Shown here: one piece after another, positions 2,523 through 25,650 of the stretch
Position numbering within the stretch: the first letter of the stretch is position 1
Layout: every line of letters starts with the position of its first letter
Source: a virus
Reading direction: 5' to 3' (one strand)
DNA: 26,760 nucleotides
Virus record (IMG/VR): IMGVR_UViG_3300042314_000978
Location: 1 to 26,760 of that record
Program-made: the position numbers and the translations under genes
The notes under the pieces: generated by a model
The model's database searches: none
Seen by the model: only the letters and a program-made list of their open reading frames with translations
What the model was told of the DNA's origin: nothing

Positions 2523-3428
2523 TTAGAACCAGGTTGAGTAGGCAACGATGTCCGAGCCAACGCCGTACTGAGTAGCTCCGAAGAACTTCGCAGAGAAGCG
2601 AACGTTGTCCTCAGCCCATGCACCCATGTCTACCACTTGGATGTTATTCCACTCGGAAGTCACGTTTGTACCGAACCACAAGTTCGAGGGCTGTGCCATA
2701 ATCATAGTTGCCGCTGGCATGCCTGGACAAACTACAATGTTGTACAATCCCATGAAGCTCTTCTGAACTTCTGGACCTGCGTATGTGTACCAACCGTTAC
2801 CGGATGCAGCGTTTGCATACATGTATGCTTCCCAAACGTCCTGACCCATATAAATGAGAGGCTTCTCAGTTGCCTTTTTCAAACCAAGAGGAGCAGCAGC
2901 GATGAGCGCCTGAATTTTAGCAAACACGTTGCTTGCGTCGATCGCTACCGGAGAAGCTACGAAGTTGATGTCGTTATCAGCATCAGCTCCGATCAACTGA
3001 AGGAATCCGTCGTACTCACCAGCAGTTGCACCGTTACCGGTCCAGATCAAGTTCTCGTTGTTCTGAGCAATACCTGCGAGCATTTCGCTGATGATGCCGT
3101 CAGTCAAAGCAGAACCCAATGTTCCGTTTTGTGCGTCTTTAGCTTCCCATGAATCCAAGAAAGTGTTTTTACAAACCTCTTCCTGGAACTGTAACTTCTT
3201 AAGCTCGATGATGCGCTCAGTCAAGTTAATGGTACCAGTTGGAGTGAACGCACAAGTTGCGTTAGCAAACGTAACGTTTGACGCGATGCGCTTCACTACT
3301 GCTTTGTATTCGATGTTCTCCTTTACGGTCACATGTTGCAGTGTCTCGTTGGCGTAGAACGCAGCCTTGATGTACTCTCCAGCGAATTTTCCGGAGTACG
3401 TAGTTGTGTTGTTTACGGTTGTTGCCAT
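2523..3428 (-). CDS. Major capsid protein
   Basis: A 301-residue protein (MATTVNNTTTYSGKFAGEY) that would form the icosahedral shell. Seen in the sequence: an N-arm rich in Thr and Asn; KENIEYKAVVKRI; a Thr/Asn-rich segment, then LTERIIELKKLQFQEEVCK; the central block NNENLIWTGNGATAGEYDGFL, where capsid proteins of this group carry the text around the E-loop and P-domain; and ALIYMG-type strands (KPLIYMGQDVWEAYMYANA) late in the protein. It lies directly after an XkdF-like protease and a coiled-coil scaffold-like gene, the usual protease-scaffold-capsid order. The ATG follows A-rich leader sequence with no Shine-Dalgarno, seven A directly before it. A hairpin follows its stop. Its length and neighbours make the call strong; assignment to the HK97 fold is expected but not shown here. 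Confidence 0.88.
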   Translation of the reverse strand: MATTVNNTTTYSGKFAGEYIKAAFYANETLQHVTVKENIEYKAVVKRIASNVTFANATCAFTPTGTINLTERIIELKKLQFQEEVCKNTFLDSWEAKDAQNGTLGSALTDGIISEMLAGIAQNNENLIWTGNGATAGEYDGFLQLIGADADNDINFVASPVAIDASNVFAKIQALIAAAPLGLKKATEKPLIYMGQDVWEAYMYANAASGNGWYTYAGPEVQKSFMGLYNIVVCPGMPAATMIMAQPSNLWFGTNVTSEWNNIQVVDMGAWAEDNVRFSAKFFGATQYGVGSDIVAYSTWF

Positions 3429-3433
3429 TTTTT

Positions 3434-4048
3434 TTACTTGTTTTGAAGGTTGTATTCGATACGCTCACGCACTGTCATGCTGTGGAACGGCTTAGTTGGG
3501 ACGGCAGGTTGTGGTTGCTTTATGCGACCAAGCTGCACGTTTTTCTCCTTGATTGAAGGAGCAGCAGCGCTTGACTTCACTTCTGAAAGTTCAGTCTTGA
3601 TGCTGCTGAGTTCGGTGGCCTTGCTGATGTTGTCAGCCTCCGACTTTGAGAGTTTGTTCAACAACTCACTGTTTTGACCTTCGAGGGCCGCAACACGTGA
3701 GCTGAGGCTCTCGATGGTTTGGATAAGATCAGCGGTGCTCATCTCTTCTTCGACTTCGACTTCCTTAATCTCTGCGATTTTGGTGTCCTCACCGATGACG
3801 ATGATGCGACCGTCCTCTAGCGTATACTCCCCGGCCTGCAAAGGCATTGAAGTACCGCTCTCGTCTTTGGTGTACACGTCTGCACCCATGCCCCACTCGG
3901 CTGCACTTGTGAAAATCACAGTGCCATCTGCGAGCTTTCCTTCGATCTCCAGGTTCACTTCTTCTTCGTCGCCGAGGAAGATTTGCTTTGGATCGATGCT
4001 GAACTGGTGAAAGATGTCGCGTACTTTTTGCGCAATGGTTCCTTTCAT
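3434..4048 (-). CDS. Capsid scaffold-like protein
   Basis: A 204-residue protein starting at MKGTIAQKVRDIF. The ATG at 4048 was chosen because an upstream in-frame extension (to 4105) is Arg/Cys-rich and unlike the rest. Residues 1-100 form an acidic strand-rich domain (PKQIFLGDEEEVNLEIEGKL, DGRIIVIGED). Residues about 105-165 are a heptad-like coiled coil (LIQTIESLSSRVAALEGQN and onward). Then comes a Pro/Lys linker and a basic C-terminal helix (MTVRERIEYNLQNK) that could bind the inner face of the capsid. Small size, coiled coil and a basic tail between protease and capsid genes are typical of scaffolding proteins that guide procapsid assembly and are then removed. The capsid ATG follows the stop by five bases. 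The role is inferred from architecture and position. Confidence 0.7.
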   Translation of the reverse strand: MKGTIAQKVRDIFHQFSIDPKQIFLGDEEEVNLEIEGKLADGTVIFTSAAEWGMGADVYTKDESGTSMPLQAGEYTLEDGRIIVIGEDTKIAEIKEVEVEEEMSTADLIQTIESLSSRVAALEGQNSELLNKLSKSEADNISKATELSSIKTELSEVKSSAAAPSIKEKNVQLGRIKQPQPAVPTKPFHSMTVRERIEYNLQNK

Positions 4049-4168
4049 TTGAATAATGTTTGAACTATTGACTCGTGTGCGTAACTTTTCCCTACAATGT
4101 AGCAAAAGAGTGACTACTTTGCATTCGATTAATAATTCCTCGGGTTAAGAGAACCTGGTTTGGTCCAT

Positions 4169-4199
4169 AAAAGGGAGCGCTAACGAGTGCTCCTTTTTT
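4169..4199 (+). terminator. Hairpin with TAACGA loop, T-tract on plus strand, partly bidirectional
   Basis: On the plus strand AAAAGGGAGCGC-TAACGA-GTGCTCC followed by T8 forms a 12-bp stem with two G-U pairs. On the minus strand those two pairs become A-C mismatches, but a GGAGC/GCTCC core and CTTTT remain. It directly follows the protease stop. It may stop minus-strand transcription weakly and plus-strand (antisense) transcription strongly. The same C-TAACGA-G loop occurs in the hairpin at 4847-4876. Confidence 0.6.
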
Positions 4200-4775
4200 T
4201 TATGCGCTCAAGGCAGCCAGCAACGCTTCGACGAAGAGGTCCTCGTTTGTGCTGCTGAGCTCTGCAACCATGTGGTCGAAGATGCCCTCGATGCTGAAGC
4301 CTTTAACCTTGCCGAGCTTTACCTCCTCCCATAAGTCGTCATTTTGCACGTAGCTCCCAACCATCCAAGTCCCAACCGGAACATCGATGCCCAGGTGGAC
4401 GCTCTTATCCTGCTCACTCTCTTTGTACCAGGTCTCAACAACGGTGCATCCTTTAACTGAATGCTCGTGCTCAAGCGTGTGGTTGTGGTGTAGATTTTTC
4501 AGCATGAACTGGTGAGCGCATTTGTATACGGTCTCCTTTTCAAAATATATGTAGTACTCTTCACCAGTTTTTTTGTCGATCCGTAGGATGTACTTCTCCG
4601 GTATAAGAGCCGGACCATAAAGCATGCGGCGCTCCTCGCTGACGGCGCTGAGCTTAACTTCGTTTAGCGCGACCCAGTTGGTTTCGATAGCCGGAAACTC
4701 TACAAGGCTGATGGCCTGCACCCCGAGCTTCATGTTATCGTCAATCACGCATTTCATAACTTTCTTTTTTTCCAT
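4200..4775 (-). CDS. XkdF-like prohead maturation protease
   Basis: A 191-residue protein that matches the pattern of the XkdF putative serine protease domain of PBSX-like phages. Seen: MKLGVQAISLVEFPAIETNW at the N-terminus; MLYGPALIPEKYILRID; YYIYFEKETVYKCAHQFM; a His-rich block (NLHHNHTLEHEH) likely to supply the catalytic His; LGIDVPVGTWMVGSYV; and KLGKVKGFSIEG, with the Ser expected to be the nucleophile. The family cleaves scaffold and capsid N-termini during head maturation. It sits directly before the scaffold-like and capsid genes, as expected. The ATG at 4775 follows a leader without Shine-Dalgarno. Hairpins lie both before and after the gene, so it may have its own transcript. Domain identification is good; catalytic residues are inferred. 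Confidence 0.85.
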   Translation of the reverse strand: MEKKKVMKCVIDDNMKLGVQAISLVEFPAIETNWVALNEVKLSAVSEERRMLYGPALIPEKYILRIDKKTGEEYYIYFEKETVYKCAHQFMLKNLHHNHTLEHEHSVKGCTVVETWYKESEQDKSVHLGIDVPVGTWMVGSYVQNDDLWEEVKLGKVKGFSIEGIFDHMVAELSSTNEDLFVEALLAALSA

Positions 4776-4846
4776 TTTTGACGGTTTTTCGTGTGTGTAT
4801 ATTGGTGGCGGTTAATCCTTAGCAGATAGCAGCAAAGGTGTGAGTG

Positions 4847-4876
4847 GGGGGCCGTCCTAACGAGGATGGCCCTTTT
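4847..4876 (+). terminator. Hairpin with TAACGA loop after tape measure gene, T4 on plus strand
   Basis: The plus strand reads GGGCCGTCC-TAACGA-GGATGGCCC-TTTT: nine pairs including one G-T, extendable by G-T pairs at the base. On the minus strand the G-T becomes A-C, and no T-tract follows. So this fits a terminator for plus-strand (antisense) RNA better than one for the operon. The hexaloop and its closing C-G pair are identical to those of the hairpin at 4169-4199, although the stems differ. Confidence 0.5.
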
Positions 4877-4879
4877 CAT

Positions 4880-7378
4880 TTAAAGTCGGGCCAGCTCCTC
4901 TACGCGTTCCCGTGCGTTTGCAGCTTTCTCCACATCGCCAGAAAGCACATAAGCGCGAGGCGTTTGTTGATCCGGGCGGTTGTTCAGGAAGTCAAGCACC
5001 AGCGGATTAAAGGCCGGTGCCGTTGGCTCAGCTCCACCACCTCCTCCTCCAGCGTCCGGTATGTTTGAGCTATCGGGCGGTGAGGTACTTTCAAACTGCG
5101 TGTTTTTAATCTTGGCTATTTGAAGTGCCCCGGCGGCAGCAGCAGCAGCCGCAGCGATTGCGCCCCGAAACACACTGGTAGGGTCACCTACTATTAGCTG
5201 TGAACCAAAAGCCGTTACTGCTGATGCCGCTGTGTTAATTATAGCCGAGGCAATTTGCATTTTTTTGTTTTTTTCAAACGCCTTTCTCTGTTCTGCTTCG
5301 ACAATATTTCGACGCTTAATCAAGTCGGCACGCTGCTGAGCTGTTCTCGCGTCTTCAATCTGTTTGTCGATCGTGCTCAGTTTTTCTCCCAGCTCGGCGC
5401 TCTTGGCTTCGTTTAAAGAGGTAAGTGCGTCCAATGCTTGCGAAGCAGTGTCGGCCCACATCTGAACTGTGTCAAAGGCAGCTTTTATACGAGCCTCTTT
5501 CTGCTTGTTGGCGAACTCTTCTTCAAGTGCTGCGGTGTCTTCACCATACTTTTTAGCCAGTTCGATGCGTGCCTCATAGTCTGCTTTGATGCCAGCGAGT
5601 TCATTGGCGAGAGCTTGTTGCCTTGTGGTAAGCCCGGCGGTCTGCGCAACAAGAACAGCCTGCTGTCTTTCCTTCTCTTTCTCGACGTCCTCCTGTGCGT
5701 ACTTGTCGGTGATGGCTTTGCGCTTCGCTTCCCATTCGGCACGGAGTGCGCTGGCATCCTGTTCTGCATCTTCGAGTTGTGTTATCTTCTCAAAGTACAC
5801 CTCTCCCAGCGCATCCAGTTCCTGTTGCTGTGCACTTTTTTGAGCGGTGAGGTTCTCCTCCACTAATCCATCCACAACTGCCTGCTGCTCCTCCTGTGCC
5901 TGCTTAGTCATTTCGATAAGCATCTGGGCATACTTCTGGCGAATGGCCAACTCCTCCTTTCCCTGCAGCTCGACGATCTGAGCCGTGTCGACCTTTGCTT
6001 TTTCTGCTTGCTCTTTAAGAGCCTTGTACTTTGCTGCAACCGCAGCAAGCTCCTGTTCTTGTGCTGTTTTTGTTGAAAGTGTCAGTTGATCCTGTGCCTC
6101 CTTAATAGCAGCGCCAACCGCTTCTTGCTCAGCAATCAAAGCCTCCCTTTTAGCTTTCGCACTTTCGCCAGCTGATTTTGCAGCATCGCGGTCCGTCTCG
6201 GCAAACCCATCACGTAGTTCTTTGACCTTCACGGCAAACACCTCACCGAGCTTGTCAAAATCCTCTGCGCTTGCACCCAGCTTTTTAAGCTCCTCCTCCT
6301 GTTTTACATACTCGCGAGTTAGTAGAGCCTCGGCCTTGGCCCGGTCATCCAGATTGCGAAGCTCAAATTCCTCTTGCAATGTTATGCGTCGAGCGTTCAA
6401 AGCATTGATGGCCTCCACCTTTATCAGTTCCCGGTCCACTTCCTGCTCTCGGTACTTCTGGCGAAGCTCAGCCAGCTCATCTTCTTGTTCTTTGCTCAAC
6501 CCATACAAGGTCCTTTGCTGCTCGACGAGCTTGTTAATCTTTAACTTTGTCGCTGCCAGGTCCTCCTCGTTAGACTTGAGTTTGAGCTTAGTTAATTTTT
6601 CAGTGTCATCAGCAGCCTGAGCAAATGCCAAGCGCTCATTGTTTTTTCGGCGCTCGGTGTACTTGTCCACCTCTTTGTTGAACTTGTCAACGTCCGCACG
6701 CTCTGAATCCAGAAACGCTTTCACCGCAAACCCAATGGCGACAATGGCAGCAGCGATGGCAAAGATTGGATTAGCCATCAGTGCCTTACCAAGAGAATTG
6801 AAAGCGCCTCCCAGACCCTTGACACCATCTATGATTCCCTTTAAAGAGAAGTTTTTAATGTTCCCGGCGACGTTTCGGATGTCCTGATTCAATCCGTCAA
6901 AGTCCAAGTTCTCTAAACGAAACTGTAACCCGCCAGCAATGTTGCTCAGGTTCTCAAGAGGTGGTCCTGCGTTTTGCCCGGCACTCTCTGCGATGTCTTT
7001 CAGTTGATCGTTAACCTCCCCAAGTCGCTGCGTGAGCTGCGTGTACTTTTGAATGCCGAGCGCTTCCTGTCCAGCAAGCAAAGCCTTTTTGAGCTCTCGC
7101 TGTTCTTGCTTTAAGTTAGCGGTCTTCGGAACCAGGTCCTCAAGACTCCCACCGAGCTTTTTGTACTGCTCGCTCAGTTCTTTATACTGGTCGCTCTTGA
7201 CATCGGTGTTCTGGAGCTGCTCGCGTAACTTGGCAAGCTGCTCGGTGACGTCCTCAGTATTCGATGCGACTTTCTTTTCGGCATTGGCTACCGCTTCCAG
7301 TCCTTTGGCGACGTCGTTGAGCGTGCCAATGGTCCCGTCTGCTTTGGTTTCGAGTTCGATTACATATTTCTTTGCCAT
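4880..7378 (-). CDS. Tail tape measure protein
   Basis: An 832-residue protein, very rich in Ala, Glu, Lys and Gln, that spans the tail lumen, sets its length and helps DNA entry. Most of residues 30-140 and 230-690 is predicted coiled coil. A hydrophobic segment at about 195-220 (ALMANPIFAIAAAIVAIGFA) and a second Ala-rich hydrophobic region at about 690-740 break it up. The second is the kind of segment tape measures are thought to insert into host membranes. The C-terminus has a Gly-rich spacer (DAGGGGGGAEP) followed by a short conserved-looking tail (PRAYVLSGDVEKA). Start ATG 7378 lies one base after the stop of a small membrane protein gene. It lies about 8 kb downstream of the tail chaperone genes, with fibre and tip genes in between, whereas these genes are usually adjacent. 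Confidence 0.88.
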   Translation of the reverse strand: MAKKYVIELETKADGTIGTLNDVAKGLEAVANAEKKVASNTEDVTEQLAKLREQLQNTDVKSDQYKELSEQYKKLGGSLEDLVPKTANLKQEQRELKKALLAGQEALGIQKYTQLTQRLGEVNDQLKDIAESAGQNAGPPLENLSNIAGGLQFRLENLDFDGLNQDIRNVAGNIKNFSLKGIIDGVKGLGGAFNSLGKALMANPIFAIAAAIVAIGFAVKAFLDSERADVDKFNKEVDKYTERRKNNERLAFAQAADDTEKLTKLKLKSNEEDLAATKLKINKLVEQQRTLYGLSKEQEDELAELRQKYREQEVDRELIKVEAINALNARRITLQEEFELRNLDDRAKAEALLTREYVKQEEELKKLGASAEDFDKLGEVFAVKVKELRDGFAETDRDAAKSAGESAKAKREALIAEQEAVGAAIKEAQDQLTLSTKTAQEQELAAVAAKYKALKEQAEKAKVDTAQIVELQGKEELAIRQKYAQMLIEMTKQAQEEQQAVVDGLVEENLTAQKSAQQQELDALGEVYFEKITQLEDAEQDASALRAEWEAKRKAITDKYAQEDVEKEKERQQAVLVAQTAGLTTRQQALANELAGIKADYEARIELAKKYGEDTAALEEEFANKQKEARIKAAFDTVQMWADTASQALDALTSLNEAKSAELGEKLSTIDKQIEDARTAQQRADLIKRRNIVEAEQRKAFEKNKKMQIASAIINTAASAVTAFGSQLIVGDPTSVFRGAIAAAAAAAAGALQIAKIKNTQFESTSPPDSSNIPDAGGGGGGAEPTAPAFNPLVLDFLNNRPDQQTPRAYVLSGDVEKAANARERVEELARL

Positions 7379-16139: not shown

Positions 16140-16481
16140 TTATATGTTCCCAATGATCTCGATAATCGGAGCACCATCGGTTCCGGTTATCTCTTGCCGC
16201 TCGATGTACCCTCGGTTCTTTCCCTGGGTCTTTAAGAAGAATATCGTTGCGGCGACGTTGCCTTCTTTGATTAGCTTGTGAAGCTGGGCCTCGGCGAAGT
16301 CGATTGTGACCTCCTTGAGCGAGGATACCTTCGCCTTGTACTCCTCGTCTGTTTGCATCCAGTTGTAATGCGTGTCTCGGTGGATGCCTGTGTTATGAGC
16401 AGCAACAGTAACGACGCCGAGAGCCTTTTCGAGGTTCTCGAGCATCGTTTTCTTGTATGTCGGTATGTCGACCTTGTTCAC
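16140..16481 (-). CDS. Terminase small subunit-like HTH protein (phBC6A51-type)
   Basis: A 113-residue protein with an N-terminal helix-turn-helix: LEKALGVVTVAAHNTGIHRDTHYNWM, followed by DEEYKAKV. This is the pattern of phBC6A51-type homeodomain proteins often annotated as terminase small subunits. The remainder (FAEAQLHKLIKEGNVAATIFFLKTQGKNRGYIERQE) also matches that family closely. It would recognise the packaging site and load terminase large subunit. The start is GTG at 16481; ATG at 16445 is the alternative but would shorten the N-terminal helix. It heads the morphogenesis operon, but the large subunit is about 6 kb away on the other strand, an unusual separation. Confidence 0.7.
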   Translation of the reverse strand: MNKVDIPTYKKTMLENLEKALGVVTVAAHNTGIHRDTHYNWMQTDEEYKAKVSSLKEVTIDFAEAQLHKLIKEGNVAATIFFLKTQGKNRGYIERQEITGTDGAPIIEIIGNI

Positions 16482-16490
16482 CGGTGGTTT

Positions 16491-16727
16491 TTATTTCACG
16501 TACTCATTAGAGACATGGTCAAGCACTGCCTCGTTGGATGTAATCAACTTTTGTACTAATGAGGTCAATTTTCCATCTTTTGCTTTACTTGCCAAAGTTT
16601 TGAGCTTAAGAATACCTTTGTTAACAACGTCAGTTATTTTGATTATTTCCATTGGATCCATAGCCGCAAGGTGAATCTCCTCGACCTGCTTACTGAGAAG
16701 AGCTACGATTTGCTTTTGTGTTTTCAT
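16491..16727 (-). CDS. Array member 6, shared N-terminus, helical
   Basis: A 78-residue protein beginning MKTQKQIVALLSKQVEEI, nearly the same as the gene at 17436-17672 in both protein and DNA over the first 50 or so bases. The body is helical (LKLKTLASKAKDGKLTSLV) and ends in a short polar tail. There is no membrane segment, no cysteine and no signal peptide. It is the last of six tandem genes sharing this N-terminus. A short A/T-rich leader without Shine-Dalgarno precedes it, and the terminase-small-like gene follows nine bases on. I do not recognise the family; function is unknown. Confidence 0.75.
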   Translation of the reverse strand: MKTQKQIVALLSKQVEEIHLAAMDPMEIIKITDVVNKGILKLKTLASKAKDGKLTSLVQKLITSNEAVLDHVSNEYVK

Positions 16728-16746
16728 GGTTTTATTTTTAATTTTA

Positions 16747-16992
16747 TTATTCTCCGAGATGTCTGTTAAGTGCGCCGTGTGCCTTATCTAAAGCTGTAAT
16801 CAAGTCCTGCATCTTCTTGTGGCCTCCTTTGCTTGCAAATGCTTTTAAGTCTACAATTCTGTCGTATATTTCGTACATGACCTTTGCTGCAGCATTTGCG
16901 TCTTTTATTGCAAGGTTAACATTTTCTTGAGAGAGACGGATCTCTTCGACCTTCTCCTGCATTTTGGTGATGAATTCTGGTTGGTTTTTCAT
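16747..16992 (-). CDS. Array member 5, shared N-terminus, helical
   Basis: An 81-residue protein beginning MKNQPEFITKMQEKVEEIRL, the most diverged copy of the shared N-terminal segment. The KVEEIRL ending aligns with KQVEEIHL of member 6. The body (VDLKAFASKGGHKKMQDLI, then LDKAHGALNRHLGE) lines up with LKTLASKAKDGKLTSLV and the C-terminus of members 3 and 6, so these are true full-length paralogues. All-helical, soluble, function unknown. Confidence 0.72.
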   Translation of the reverse strand: MKNQPEFITKMQEKVEEIRLSQENVNLAIKDANAAAKVMYEIYDRIVDLKAFASKGGHKKMQDLITALDKAHGALNRHLGE

Positions 16993-17010
16993 ATTATTTG
17001 AGTTGTTTAA

Positions 17011-17418
17011 TTAATCGTACTCGTTTGGGCCTCCGCCGTACTGGACGTTTCTTTTCTCCTTTAACCACATCTTCAGGACCTTTTCATAGTCGGATGCGGT
17101 TTGATTTTGCTGCACGCCTTTTTTCTTAGCGATGTCGTACAGCTTTTTAGCAAAACTTGACACTTGACTGCTGTCGGTGAAAGTTATTTTTTCAGATCGA
17201 CTGCGCGTTCTCCCGTCACTAATCCAAAGTGTAAAGTTATCGTCTCCACTTGGTTTGTCCCATCCCGCTCCATTTTTAAGGGTAAAATAAACGTTGTCTG
17301 CATCCTTAAAGACTCCGATAGAATACTTGCCGGACTCCTGTTTACGATAACCGGGAGCAGCAGGTAGGTTCTGTTCGTTTCTACCTAAGAGCTGTGCAAG
17401 TTCTTTTTTTGACCTCAT
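17011..17418 (-). CDS. Array member 4, shared N-terminus with beta-rich body
   Basis: A 135-residue protein beginning MRSKKELAQLLGRNEQNLPA. ATG 17418 was chosen because it aligns with the other array starts; a GTG at 17442 is the alternative. After the shared segment the body is different: strands (KYSIGVFKDADNVYFTLKNG, FTLWISDGRTRSRSEKITF), then a Lys-rich helix and a Gly/Asn tail. The N-terminal LLGRNEQNLP matches LLADNSANPP of member 2, so members 2 and 4 form a second class. No enzymatic motif is recognised. The two-class pattern suggests a shared leader joined to different cargo domains. Confidence 0.72.
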   Translation of the reverse strand: MRSKKELAQLLGRNEQNLPAAPGYRKQESGKYSIGVFKDADNVYFTLKNGAGWDKPSGDDNFTLWISDGRTRSRSEKITFTDSSQVSSFAKKLYDIAKKKGVQQNQTASDYEKVLKMWLKEKRNVQYGGGPNEYD

Positions 17419-17435
17419 GGTGTTTTTGTTTTTTA

Positions 17436-17672
17436 TTACCACTGGTAGTTTGCGTTCAAGTGACTTACAAGCTCTTTATTAACGGCTTCCAGTTTTTTTA
17501 TGATGCTATTTAATTTTGAATCCTCTCGAAGTTTCGCTGATCCTTGCAAGTTGGTAATAGCATTGTCGATATTACCCACAGCTTTACCTGCGCTCATCAT
17601 TTTGTCCTTTGCCAGGTTAACCTCTTTGACCTGCTTACTGAGAAGCGCTACGATTTCTTTTTGTGTTTTCAT
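17436..17672 (-). CDS. Array member 3, shared N-terminus, helical
   Basis: A 78-residue protein beginning MKTQKEIVALLSKQVKEVNL. Over the first 18 residues it differs from member 6 at few positions, and the DNA carries the same CTTCTCAGTAAGCAGGTC, pointing to recent duplication or conversion. The body is helical (AGKAVGNIDNAITNLQG, KLNSIIKKLEAVNKELVSHL) and aligns with members 5 and 6. Function unknown. Confidence 0.75.
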   Translation of the reverse strand: MKTQKEIVALLSKQVKEVNLAKDKMMSAGKAVGNIDNAITNLQGSAKLREDSKLNSIIKKLEAVNKELVSHLNANYQW

Positions 17673-17676
17673 GTGG

Positions 17677-18045
17677 TTATTTAAATATGGTTACTGTCAT
17701 TTGATACAACTCGCTTCCGGTGCGGTTGCTTGGCTTGAGCGCATAAATCGATGCGTACATGTTCTCGTCGTTTACCAAGCCAGCACTCTTTCCTGTAATT
17801 CGTGGAGCGTTAAAGCTGCCAGCATCTTCGTTGGGACCTTGCTCTACAATAACGCTGACACGAACCTCGCCACCTGATTTTGGCAGGCTGAAGCGGTAGA
17901 AGTTGTCCTTATCCGATGTAAGCCCCTTCATTCGCGGTGCAATCCCCTTTAGTTGTTTCAAGGCTTCCTTGACAATACTGTCGTTCATCGGTGGGTTCGC
18001 GCTGTTGTCTGCCAGAAGCTCGGCAATTTCCTGTTTGGTTCTCAT
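17677..18045 (-). CDS. Array member 2, shared N-terminus with beta-rich body
   Basis: A 122-residue protein beginning MRTKQEIAELLADNSANPP. After the shared N-terminal helix it has a short linker and helix (IVKEALKQLKGIAPRMKGL) and then a strand-rich domain (FYRFSLPKSGGEVRVSVIVE, MYASIYALKPSNRTGSELYQ). It shares the MRxKxE and LL..N..NxP pattern with member 4, but not its body. Its ATG overlaps the stop of member 1, so the two are probably co-translated. I do not recognise the domain; function is unknown. Confidence 0.72.
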   Translation of the reverse strand: MRTKQEIAELLADNSANPPMNDSIVKEALKQLKGIAPRMKGLTSDKDNFYRFSLPKSGGEVRVSVIVEQGPNEDAGSFNAPRITGKSAGLVNDENMYASIYALKPSNRTGSELYQMTVTIFK

Positions 18046-18284
18046 TTCACTTTGGATAATAGTTTTTTTAATGCTGCTGAAGCTTCGTCAATCTCTGATG
18101 GTTGTGCTCCTTTGGGTGCATACTTTCCTTTAGTTCTTAGAATATCCTTTTTTAGGAAATCCAACTCCTTAATCAAATCCTTCATCAAACTCGTGTGCGG
18201 TTCCATGTACGAGTAATCATTTTCCATTTGAATTTCACGAACTTTTTTGCTAAGCAAGTCAGTCAGTTCTTTCTGGGTTTTCAT
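18042..18284 (-). CDS. Array member 1, shared N-terminus, helical
   Basis: An 80-residue protein beginning MKTQKELTDLLSKKVREIQM. ATG 18284 was chosen by alignment with the other array members; the 16 in-frame residues upstream are unlike them. The rest is helical and Lys-rich (LMKDLIKELDFLKKDILRTK, ASAALKKLLSKVK). It is the first gene of the array and directly follows a candidate promoter at 18306-18337. Function unknown. Confidence 0.72.
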   Translation of the reverse strand: MKTQKELTDLLSKKVREIQMENDYSYMEPHTSLMKDLIKELDFLKKDILRTKGKYAPKGAQPSEIDEASAALKKLLSKVK

Positions 18285-18305
18285 AACGGTGTTTATAATA
18301 TAGAC

Positions 18306-18337
18306 CAAAAATGGCATGCTTTTCCCAATCACGCAAG
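18306..18337 (-). promoter_or_regulatory. Candidate Bacteroidetes-type promoter for small-gene array
   Basis: On the minus strand CTTG is followed after 20 bases by CATTTTTG, 7 of 8 matches to the Bacteroidetes -7 element TAnnTTTG at the known spacing of about 19-21 from a TTTG-like -33 element. A start site would fall about 20-15 bases before the array's first ATG. The elements are short, so this is a candidate only. Confidence 0.35.
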
Positions 18338-19516
18338 TTAATTCGGATTAGTTTCAAGCACCGCCTTGTTACCTGTTAGGTTCTCCCAGCGCTTGACGAT
18401 GACGTCACAGTACTTCGGATCCAACTCCATGCTGCAGTTGCGGCGACCCGTCTGTTCGCAGGCTATCATTGTCGACCCGGAACCTCCAAAAAGGTCCAGG
18501 ACCAGGTTCCCGGCACGTGAACTATTGTTGAGAGCCCGGGCGATGAGTTCGATTGGCTTGGTCGTTGGGTGTAGATCCGATACGTGCGGACGGTCCACTT
18601 CCCATACGTCTGATTGCTTACGATCTTCGACGGTCATCAGGCGAGCGGCCTTTTCATTCCAGCCATACCAAATCGGTTCGTACTGGGTGTGGTAGTCCTT
18701 GCGGCTGATAACCAGGCGGTCCTTGACCCAGATGATTGTCGATGACCAGTGGAACCCGGCGTTTATCAGATTGGTTTGAAGCGATGGCCATTCCTGAGCG
18801 GACATCACCACGTAGATTGGAGCACCAGGCTTTGAGGCAATGGCGAAGCTGGCACAAAAGCCGGAGACGAACTCATCCCACTTGTCGTCCTCCATGTGGT
18901 CGTTCATTATGGTTCTCTGCTTCCAGGGTGTCTTTCCTGTTTGACCTCCATAGTTCACGTTCCAAGGTGGGTCGGTAAAGATCAGGTCAGCCAATTCTTT
19001 ATTCATCAAACGATCGACGTGCTGAGTGTTTGTTGAGTCACCGCAAAGCAATCGGTGCTGGCCAAGTAGGTAAAGGTCGCCTGGCTTGGTGATAGGCTCC
19101 TCGGGTACTTCCGGAACCTCGTCTTGATCAATCTCTGCCGTCTTGAACAGGTCCTTTGGAAGGTCCATGCCCCATTCGTCAAGCTCGGCGACGTCCCACT
19201 CGTTCGCGAGCATGTCCCAGTCCCAGTCTCCGAAGCCGACGTTGTCTTTGATAATAAACTGGCGCTGTTCGTCTTCGCTCAGGTCGCTGGCCTTAATGAC
19301 CGGCACCTCCTTGATGCCTGCCTCCTTGCAAGCCTTGAGGCGCATGTTGCCTCCAAGGACAATCATGTCGTCGTTGACAACGATCGGACGCAGTTCGAGC
19401 ATCTTTGGAAAGGTCCGGATGGATTCCACCAGGCGTTTGAACTTCGCGTCCTTAATAGTTCGCGGGTTGTTTGGGTTCGCTTTGATCTGAGCAAGCGGTG
19501 TGAGTGTGCTGTTCAT
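18338..19516 (-). CDS. ParB-like domain fused to beta-class DNA methyltransferase
   Basis: A 392-residue protein. Residues 1-90 are a ParB/sulfiredoxin-like nuclease-fold domain (LAQIKANPNNPRTI and IVLGGNMRLKAC with the GGNxR motif). Residues 91-140 form an acidic linker. The rest is an adenine-N6 or cytosine-N4 methyltransferase: PGDLYLLGQHRLLCGDS, motif IV TDPPW at about 181-185, a target-recognition region, HPTTKP, and motif I LDLFGGSGSTM near residue 345, the beta-class order. It transfers methyl from S-adenosylmethionine to DNA. No restriction enzyme is next to it, so it is probably an orphan that shields phage DNA or marks it for the phage. Its ATG overlaps the stop of a 48-residue gene. 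Family call is strong; target sequence is unknown. Confidence 0.9.
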   Translation of the reverse strand: MNSTLTPLAQIKANPNNPRTIKDAKFKRLVESIRTFPKMLELRPIVVNDDMIVLGGNMRLKACKEAGIKEVPVIKASDLSEDEQRQFIIKDNVGFGDWDWDMLANEWDVAELDEWGMDLPKDLFKTAEIDQDEVPEVPEEPITKPGDLYLLGQHRLLCGDSTNTQHVDRLMNKELADLIFTDPPWNVNYGGQTGKTPWKQRTIMNDHMEDDKWDEFVSGFCASFAIASKPGAPIYVVMSAQEWPSLQTNLINAGFHWSSTIIWVKDRLVISRKDYHTQYEPIWYGWNEKAARLMTVEDRKQSDVWEVDRPHVSDLHPTTKPIELIARALNNSSRAGNLVLDLFGGSGSTMIACEQTGRRNCSMELDPKYCDVIVKRWENLTGNKAVLETNPN

Positions 19517-20061: not shown

Positions 20062-20564
20062 ATCTGAACGTCCTGTTTGTTTCCTATTTGAAGCTGGAGC
20101 TCCTTTACTACTGCCCGGACGCATTCGTCGCAGCGTCTCATTGGACGACCACTTGCTCTCTCAAACCACTTCAGCACTTGATTGACCTGGTCACCAGTCA
20201 GCTGTCCCTTTGTGGGTAGAGTCTTAATAAACTCCTCCAGCATGTTGGTTTCGGTATCAGTCAAGCGGTACTTACCCCAGCGACCGATTGGGCAGGACTC
20301 GAAGCTGAACTTAGTCTTTTCCTTCACATAGCATCCGCAGAGTCTGACCTTCTTCTTGTAGTACTTCACCAGGTTGAATTCTTGTGTCTCGGTGTCGACA
20401 TCAACCTCTTCCGGATCCACAAGACCGCCATGCGTACCATCTACGAGCCCCTTAAGGCTCATGGGTTTGCCGCAGGTCTCATGCTCGGCGTTGTAAAACT
20501 TGCACTTGCCACACTCATTCAGGCGTGCTGTGCGGACCCTCGCAGGGACGTTGAGCTTGAACAT
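20058..20564 (-). CDS. Zinc-ribbon protein of Bacteroidetes-phage type
   Basis: A 168-residue protein with two Cys clusters. The first is NECGKCKFYNAEHETCGKPM (Cys 18, 21, 31). The second is RLCGCYVKEKTKFSFESCP (Cys at about 75, 77 and 90), with IGRW after it. Spacing and context suggest one or two bound zinc ions. The last third is helical with another CDEC pair (ERASGRPMRRCDECVRAVV). I associate the CxxC...C...LCGC...CPxxxW pattern with small proteins in Bacteroidetes phages, but no activity is known to me. The start overlaps the end of the sigma-like gene by 50 bases. No alternative ATG fits, because the first Cys pair lies only 17 residues in. Confidence 0.72.
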   Translation of the reverse strand: MFKLNVPARVRTARLNECGKCKFYNAEHETCGKPMSLKGLVDGTHGGLVDPEEVDVDTETQEFNLVKYYKKKVRLCGCYVKEKTKFSFESCPIGRWGKYRLTDTETNMLEEFIKTLPTKGQLTGDQVNQVLKWFERASGRPMRRCDECVRAVVKELQLQIGNKQDVQI

Positions 20565-21066
20565 TGTCTCGTATTTTTTTAATTGCGTTCTCCACTAATT
20601 TATACAATGCCTTTTTTGGTATTCCGGTCTCCTTGGCGACGACGTCATACTTGAAGTCTTGCATGGCGTACAGCCTGAGGACGACCGCATCCAGCTCCGG
20701 CATCATTGAGATGTAAGCATCCACATACTCATTGTCGATCCGGGCACCAATCCATGCTTTCTCAGGCTCCATGTTTGAGACGTCTGCCTCGGTGCTCCAT
20801 TGAGCCGCGAAGCGTTTGTAGGTCTGCGCATACTTTGTGTGCTTGCCTATCTTCATAAGATAGAGCGACCGGTTGACGTACTCGTACAGCTTGCCGCGAC
20901 TGGCGACCTCTTCGGCTTGAGCGCGATGTTTATCAAATATCTTGAGCAGAGTCTCAGAGAGAAGGTCCTCACCGCGCACCACATCCCTTTCGAGTCGGAT
21001 GGCGTTCTCCCTCCACTGGGCGAGGTGTCTGTTCACAAGTGTCTCCAATATTTCGCGCTGTTGCAC
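20515..21066 (-). CDS. Sigma-70-like (ECF-type) RNA polymerase factor
   Basis: A 183-residue protein with a sigma-2-like region (VVRGEDLLSETLLKIFDKHR) and a sigma-4-like HTH at the C-terminus (YISMMPELDAVVLRLYAMQD, then VVAKETGIPKKALYKLVENA). It could direct host RNA polymerase to phage late promoters. The start is GTG at 21066, with an in-frame TAA six bases upstream. It is preceded by a TACATTTG box and an inverted repeat, so its expression is probably controlled together with the divergent HTH gene. The two-region layout is clear; it could instead be a sigma-like regulator that does not replace the host factor. The C-terminus is unstructured and overlaps the next gene. Confidence 0.75.
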   Translation of the reverse strand: MQQREILETLVNRHLAQWRENAIRLERDVVRGEDLLSETLLKIFDKHRAQAEEVASRGKLYEYVNRSLYLMKIGKHTKYAQTYKRFAAQWSTEADVSNMEPEKAWIGARIDNEYVDAYISMMPELDAVVLRLYAMQDFKYDVVAKETGIPKKALYKLVENAIKKIRDNVQAQRPCEGPHSTPE

Positions 21067-25104: not shown

Positions 25105-25650
25105 TTATGTATGTTTTAATTGTTTGAGCTTTGCCTTGTAGAGCTTGATCTGCCACTGAATCTCGTCGACTGTTAAGGAGAGCCGTCCATTTTTCGCCTC
25201 GTGCAGCGCCTCGTACTCCTTCATTCCAATCCGGAAAATGAGCTTGGCTCCATATTCTATAAGGTTCCCGTGCTTATGCTGGTTGCATTCCACGCACTGT
25301 CCATGAACGTTCGACTCGGTAAATCGTAGGTTTGGGTAGCTGCCGACGCTGAAGTAGTGCCCGGCGTCGTACTTGCCTCTCAGAGGCTTGCCGCAGCTGA
25401 TGCATGTGTACATCTTGTCGCGTTCCCTTATGTAAGCGTTAAAGACCGTCTGCAGCTCCTTCAGGTAGTCCTGCCTGGTCTTGAGCTTTTGGCGCATCTC
25501 CTGTATCTTTAGCTTGTTCAGTTTTGCATTCACAACCTTGGCATTGGCCAGGATGCAGCTGACCTTTGTGCAGGTCGCCTGAAGCGTACTCACTGTGGGC
25601 GTGAATGGATCTTTGCAGACCTTGCATTTTTTGCGTTTTGCTGTTTTCAT
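25105..25650 (-). CDS. ninG: NinG-like recombination protein
   Basis: A 181-residue protein matching the lambda NinG (Rap) family. It has an N-terminal zinc finger CKVCKDPF...CTKVSC (residues 9-34), a Lys-rich helical linker, then CISCGKPLRGKYDAGHYFSV, NVHGQCVECNQHKHGN and LIEYGAKL. This CxxC-H-N-CxxC-H arrangement is related to HNH nucleases. NinG proteins promote recombination and process branched DNA. It lies between a 60-residue gene and an 87-residue gene in the replication operon, in tight overlap with the former. Length is close to the family norm. Confidence 0.85.
   Translation of the reverse strand: MKTAKRKKCKVCKDPFTPTVSTLQATCTKVSCILANAKVVNAKLNKLKIQEMRQKLKTRQDYLKELQTVFNAYIRERDKMYTCISCGKPLRGKYDAGHYFSVGSYPNLRFTESNVHGQCVECNQHKHGNLIEYGAKLIFRIGMKEYEALHEAKNGRLSLTVDEIQWQIKLYKAKLKQLKHT

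Follow-up and report, generated by a model that had tools for sequence, protein, structure and literature searches.

The internal proteins of phage T4, IPI, IPII and IPIII, have only an N-terminal leader in common, and it is this leader that directs their packaging (PMC12373910); in IPIII, the first ten residues are enough for entry into the head (PMC9026906). They are injected proteins that inhibit restriction enzymes of type IV (PMC12373910; PMC9026906), and in the same phage gp67 and gp68 are proteins of the prohead core (PMC9026906). Two further systems can be set beside the locus studied here by description. In phage P1, the first 30 residues of DarB act in its targeting (PMC9024508), a signal of about 30 residues that sends a defense-blocking protein to the head, though DarB is large and the part of that source dealing with its targeting describes no shared-leader array for Dar. 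The inner head and ejection proteins of phiKZ-like phages and SPN3US are likewise head-internal and carry removable propeptides, whereas these are giant phages and cleavage in phiKZ falls at S/A-x-E.

The locus reported here lies in a 26.8-kb viral contig, analyzed in full and referred to as the window. Bordered by a ParB-N/methyltransferase gene on one side and the small terminase gene on the other, six small minus-strand genes follow one another in tandem (Table 1); their span is exactly that given by the original prediction, which had described six tandem ORFs starting with variants of one leader. The long leader, present in four members, covers about 20-24 residues and reads MK(T/N)QKE(I/L)xxLLSKQVxE(I/V)xLA or an MKNQPE variant. 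Members 2 and 4 carry a short leader, MR(T/S)KxE(I/L)AxLL, on bodies unlike each other, in agreement with the MRxKxE(I/L)AxLL version proposed for them. Three other predicted properties were borne out: members 3 and 6 are near-identical in their starting DNA, with 48 of 54 leader nucleotides the same; the array is richer in AT than its flanks (local GC 0.40-0.44 vs ~0.51-0.54 nearby); and it has its own candidate promoter upstream of gene 1, a region that occurs once in the window and is conserved in 8/8 of the arrays described below. With a promoter of its own, the array need not be late.

Table 1. Features of the window; all positions are numbered along the 26.8-kb contig.
Feature	Position	Strand	Remarks
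Head maturation protease, XkdF type	4200..4775	-	Peptidase_S78_2, E 1e-15; candidate leader-processing enzyme
Probable scaffold	3434..4105	-	Adjoins protease and major capsid protein; candidate binding partner of the leader
Small terminase subunit	16140..16481	-	Flanking gene, downstream border of array
Member 6	16491..16727	-	78 aa; long leader 16656-16727 and helical body
Member 5	16747..16992	-	81 aa; leader version MKNQPEFITKMQEKVEEI 16921-16992 and helical body
Member 4	17011..17418	-	135 aa; short leader MRSKKELAQLL 17383-17418, linker, beta-rich domain and two C-terminal helices (predicted, AlphaFold2 pLDDT 60)
Member 3	17436..17672	-	78 aa; long leader 17601-17672 and helical body
Member 2	17677..18045	-	122 aa; short leader MRTKQEIAELL 18010-18045 and mixed helix/strand body
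Member 1	18042..18284	-	80 aa; long leader 18213-18284 and small helical body
Array promoter region	18292..18336	-	TTGC-N20-CATTTTTGG at 18305-18336, then GGTCTATATTATAAA at 18292-18306
ParB-N/N6-N4 DNA methyltransferase	18338..19516	-	Flanking gene, upstream border of array

Searches with neighboring genes, array members and leader patterns located arrays at the same place in seven further contigs, namely G001 (IMG/VR 3300020048_000448), G002 (3300008259_000103), G003 (3300042540_001487), G004 (3300037041_000990), G005 (3300042884_000649), G006 (3300005805_000958) and L280; IMG/VR 3300043775_002225 is a near copy of the window. Within the borders of the arrays, virtually all genes start with some version of the leader, giving a set of 36 leader modules in seven phages, plus L280. 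No protein start outside the arrays carried it among the related contigs examined whole, and an exact degenerate pattern search of bacterial genomes found none. The array is absent from L010 and L008, and it therefore behaves as a cassette. In the close relative L010, the methyltransferase and terminase genes overlap by four bases and both the array and its promoter are missing (3174-4711), which appears to be the empty site. The G005 array is probably longer than assembled, since the contig break (L186 1-116, L187 16477-16661) falls inside two copies of one array gene; the apparent circularity of this contig was rejected as a repeat artifact. By capsid protein, the nearest named relatives are the Nonlabens phages P12024L/S, at 30% identity, and member 3 has no match in P12024L.

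Comparison of these arrays reveals exchange between leaders and bodies in both directions. The same leader stands on unrelated bodies in G005_2 and G005_3 (54/54 leader nucleotides identical), in G004_2 and window member 5 (53/54), in G004_2 and G006_4 (52/54), and in G004_3 and G006_5 (49/54). Conversely, the same body follows different leaders in G004_2 and G006_6 (body 57/61 identical, leader 7/18), G002_3 and G006_4 (body 42/67, leader 7/18), G002_4 and G006_1 (body 32/63, leader 4/18), and G003_4 and window member 5 (body 24/55, leader 7/18). The body type of member 3 also occurs in G001, there on a different leader, and member 2 has homologs in G001 (99%) and in G004, in the latter as the second of the modules fused in one gene (55%). 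Such fused genes (G004_1, G005_1 and a two-module gene in L280) contain two or three modules with a leader heading each, and in two of these leaders the start codon is changed. Rather than vanishing in homologs, the leader is kept, and at this locus in related phages it has been recombined onto other bodies, as the original prediction of one leader joined to different cargoes envisaged.

The bodies are mostly 50-115 residues long and mainly helical, with some beta-rich. They have no convincing match in Pfam, PHROG or PDB and none to known internal proteins, and no bodies of the types of members 2, 3 and 4 were found outside this phage group. The predicted model of member 4 is without a PDB match, and its best match in BFVD (E 0.006) was not trusted; the model of member 2 was too poor to define a fold (pLDDT 47). 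The array proteins are basic, with a median pI of 9.25 vs 7.1 for the remaining small ORFs in the same phages, and cysteine is almost absent from them. A RiPP-type leader peptide was rejected on the basis of this scarcity of cysteine and of bodies ~50-220 aa in length. The leader as an amphipathic helix was likewise set aside, its hydrophobic moment being not unusual (mean z 0.57).

The idea of a relationship with the T4 internal proteins was framed before its test, in which a profile derived from array leaders only was used to rank the T4 ORFs (n=372). IPIII came first, IPII second and IPI fourth, and among the seven T4 ORFs that start with MKT the profile puts the three internal proteins first. 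When K2 and T3 were kept and the other columns shuffled, 0.1% of permutations attained the summed T4 score and 2.2% the rank sum; with K2 and T3 left out, the ranks fall to 1, 13 and 20. In a background of 2,612 ORFs, the three T4 scores were reached by 0, 1 and 7. A further pattern, fitted with the T4 leaders already in view, matches 24/36 modules, exactly IPI-III in T4, and 0/2,742 other ORFs. The resemblance covers about 8 residues, of which MKT is part, and because IPII and IPIII have one leader in common, T4 counts as no more than one or two independent cases. Applied to all of IMG/VR, a degenerate DNA pattern for the leader recovered, besides the array group, T4-like contigs with an MKTFKE(L/M)xxLL gene at the prohead-core (gene 67-68) position, adjoining genes for the gp20 portal or gp21 protease, gp22 scaffold and gp23 capsid protein; its other matches were unrelated genes, such as those for a methyltransferase and a helix-turn-helix protein. 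Three of these T4-like genes (L231 3481-3858, L252 379-756, L238 484-720) lie at the gene 68 position and have no match in the annotated phage collection.

Like IPI, IPII and IPIII, the array proteins are small and basic, have unlike bodies, form a lineage-variable gene set and have only a short N-terminal leader in common, and the T4 leaders MKTYQEF and MKTFKEF are similar to MKTxKE(I/L) of the array. There are also differences. The array phages are of an unrelated type, with an XkdF/S78 protease in place of gp21/gp22; neither a gp21-type protease (Peptidase_S77) nor a gp22 core was found in the window phage. A cleavage motif like that of T4, L/I-x-E, is present in 16/36 of the array leaders and so is not universal, and an XkdF-type protease may cut at other sites. 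In most members the leader is also longer than in T4, and the array is one fixed locus with fused modules and leader swaps. The layout had originally been thought to be undescribed, a view that the T4 internal proteins overturn as a precedent; what this locus adds is a different type of phage, one array at a fixed place, a demonstration that leaders and bodies are exchanged, genes with fused modules, and cargo of no recognized family.

Several other genes of the window phage bear mention. The scaffold candidate matches only an uncharacterized PHROG, and its real start is probably an internal ATG, MKGTIAQKVRDIF. We considered whether the leader is homologous to the start of the scaffold (MKGxIAQKVRDIF) and rejected this, the best rank of 10 among 115,357 windows being not significant. 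The order of the head genes is unusual, with the tape-measure gene preceding those for the head protease, scaffold and capsid (2523-7378, minus strand). At 20515-21066 on the minus strand, a 183-aa protein conserved in the group has a match to sigma-70 region 4 just below the Pfam cut-off (E 9.6e-6), and is possibly a phage sigma factor. A NinG-like recombination protein (25105-25650, minus strand; Pfam E 2.8e-46) is encoded near a DnaB-type helicase and might take part in recombination of the array.

Leaders this short invite the suspicion of chance or of an annotation artifact. As a control, pairs of ORFs on the same strand were taken from 154 other phage loci, and an N-terminal similarity score of at least 28 was reached by 27/77 within-array pairs vs 2/10,834 control pairs, one of the latter consisting of genuine paralogues along their full length. 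In a scan of 1.2 Mb of related loci, the leader profile gives array genes at least 19.1 bits and everything else at most 12.4. As the same locus is moreover occupied in eight arrays, we consider the likelihood of a chance or artifactual origin to be negligible. A conserved start could also reflect a DNA or mRNA element, such as a recombination site or a translation start, in place of a protein tag, and the pairs with near-identical leader DNA would suit such an element. Between most leaders, however, synonymous sites are saturated and the residues are kept, and leaders inside fused genes have survived the loss of the start codon, all of which makes this explanation very improbable. Pairwise comparison of the MKT-type long leaders gives pS 0.67, pN 0.28 and dN/dS 0.21, that of the short leaders pS 0.69, pN 0.27 and dN/dS 0.18, and the bodies in ungapped comparison look random (pN 0.70). 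Taken with the synonymous saturation, these values indicate that selection keeps the leader as a protein sequence. Together with the swaps in both directions and the excess of similar pairs over the control, this provides good support for the original proposal of a constant protein tag on interchangeable cargoes.

Two explanations accept a conserved protein start and give it another role. The genes may be ordinary tandem paralogues, in which the first helix is part of the fold and evolves more slowly, with no function as a tag; many of the helical bodies do align over part of their length. The same start is nonetheless found on unlike beta-rich bodies, one body type occurs with different leaders, and at the DNA level leader identity jumps to unrelated bodies, so we regard this as quite unlikely. 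Alternatively, the leader may be a docking or oligomerization helix that joins the bodies to one partner in the infected cell, be it a host protein, a membrane site or a phage complex, with no packaging involved. Conservation at the protein level and swapping suit any tag, and the conserved promoter of the array makes early expression possible, but a docking helix predicts neither the match to the T4 internal proteins and to genes at the prohead-core position nor the strong basic bias, and we think it rather unlikely. The observations are explained most economically by a tag that targets the capsid and carries exchangeable cargo for injection, and targeting to the virion is also the best of the roles that the original prediction had offered for the leader. 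It has indirect support from the resemblance to the capsid-targeting sequences of T4 and from the genes at the T4-like prohead-core position; packaging, injection, processing and counter-defense are all inferred. That variable cargo enters the head by means of the leader and is then injected, probably for counter-defense as in T4, has in our estimation about an even chance of being correct.

If the leader is a capsid-targeting tag, it would bind the prohead core, either the scaffold or an inner shell, during head assembly and carry each small basic protein into the prohead, where the XkdF-type protease may remove it. The cargo proteins would remain with the DNA and be injected at infection, and the different bodies would then act on host factors, most likely first-response defenses. 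Recombination through the leader would reshuffle tag and cargo within the cassette, allowing quick turnover of cargo with retention of the tag. We further propose, tentatively and at somewhat less than an even chance, that small non-T4 phages, probably infecting Bacteroidota, have independently evolved a modular system for head cargo, in which a universal, recombination-exchangeable tag serves rapidly changing injected effectors with uncharacterized folds, and fused modules are possibly processed into separate effectors.

Should this reading be correct, the leader would provide a searchable signature for injected phage proteins outside the relatives of T4 and a pointer to small uncharacterized proteins likely to block host defenses. 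It would also represent a modular tag for packaging that occurs naturally in a small phage, and would suggest that the loading of tagged cargo arose or spread well beyond T4.
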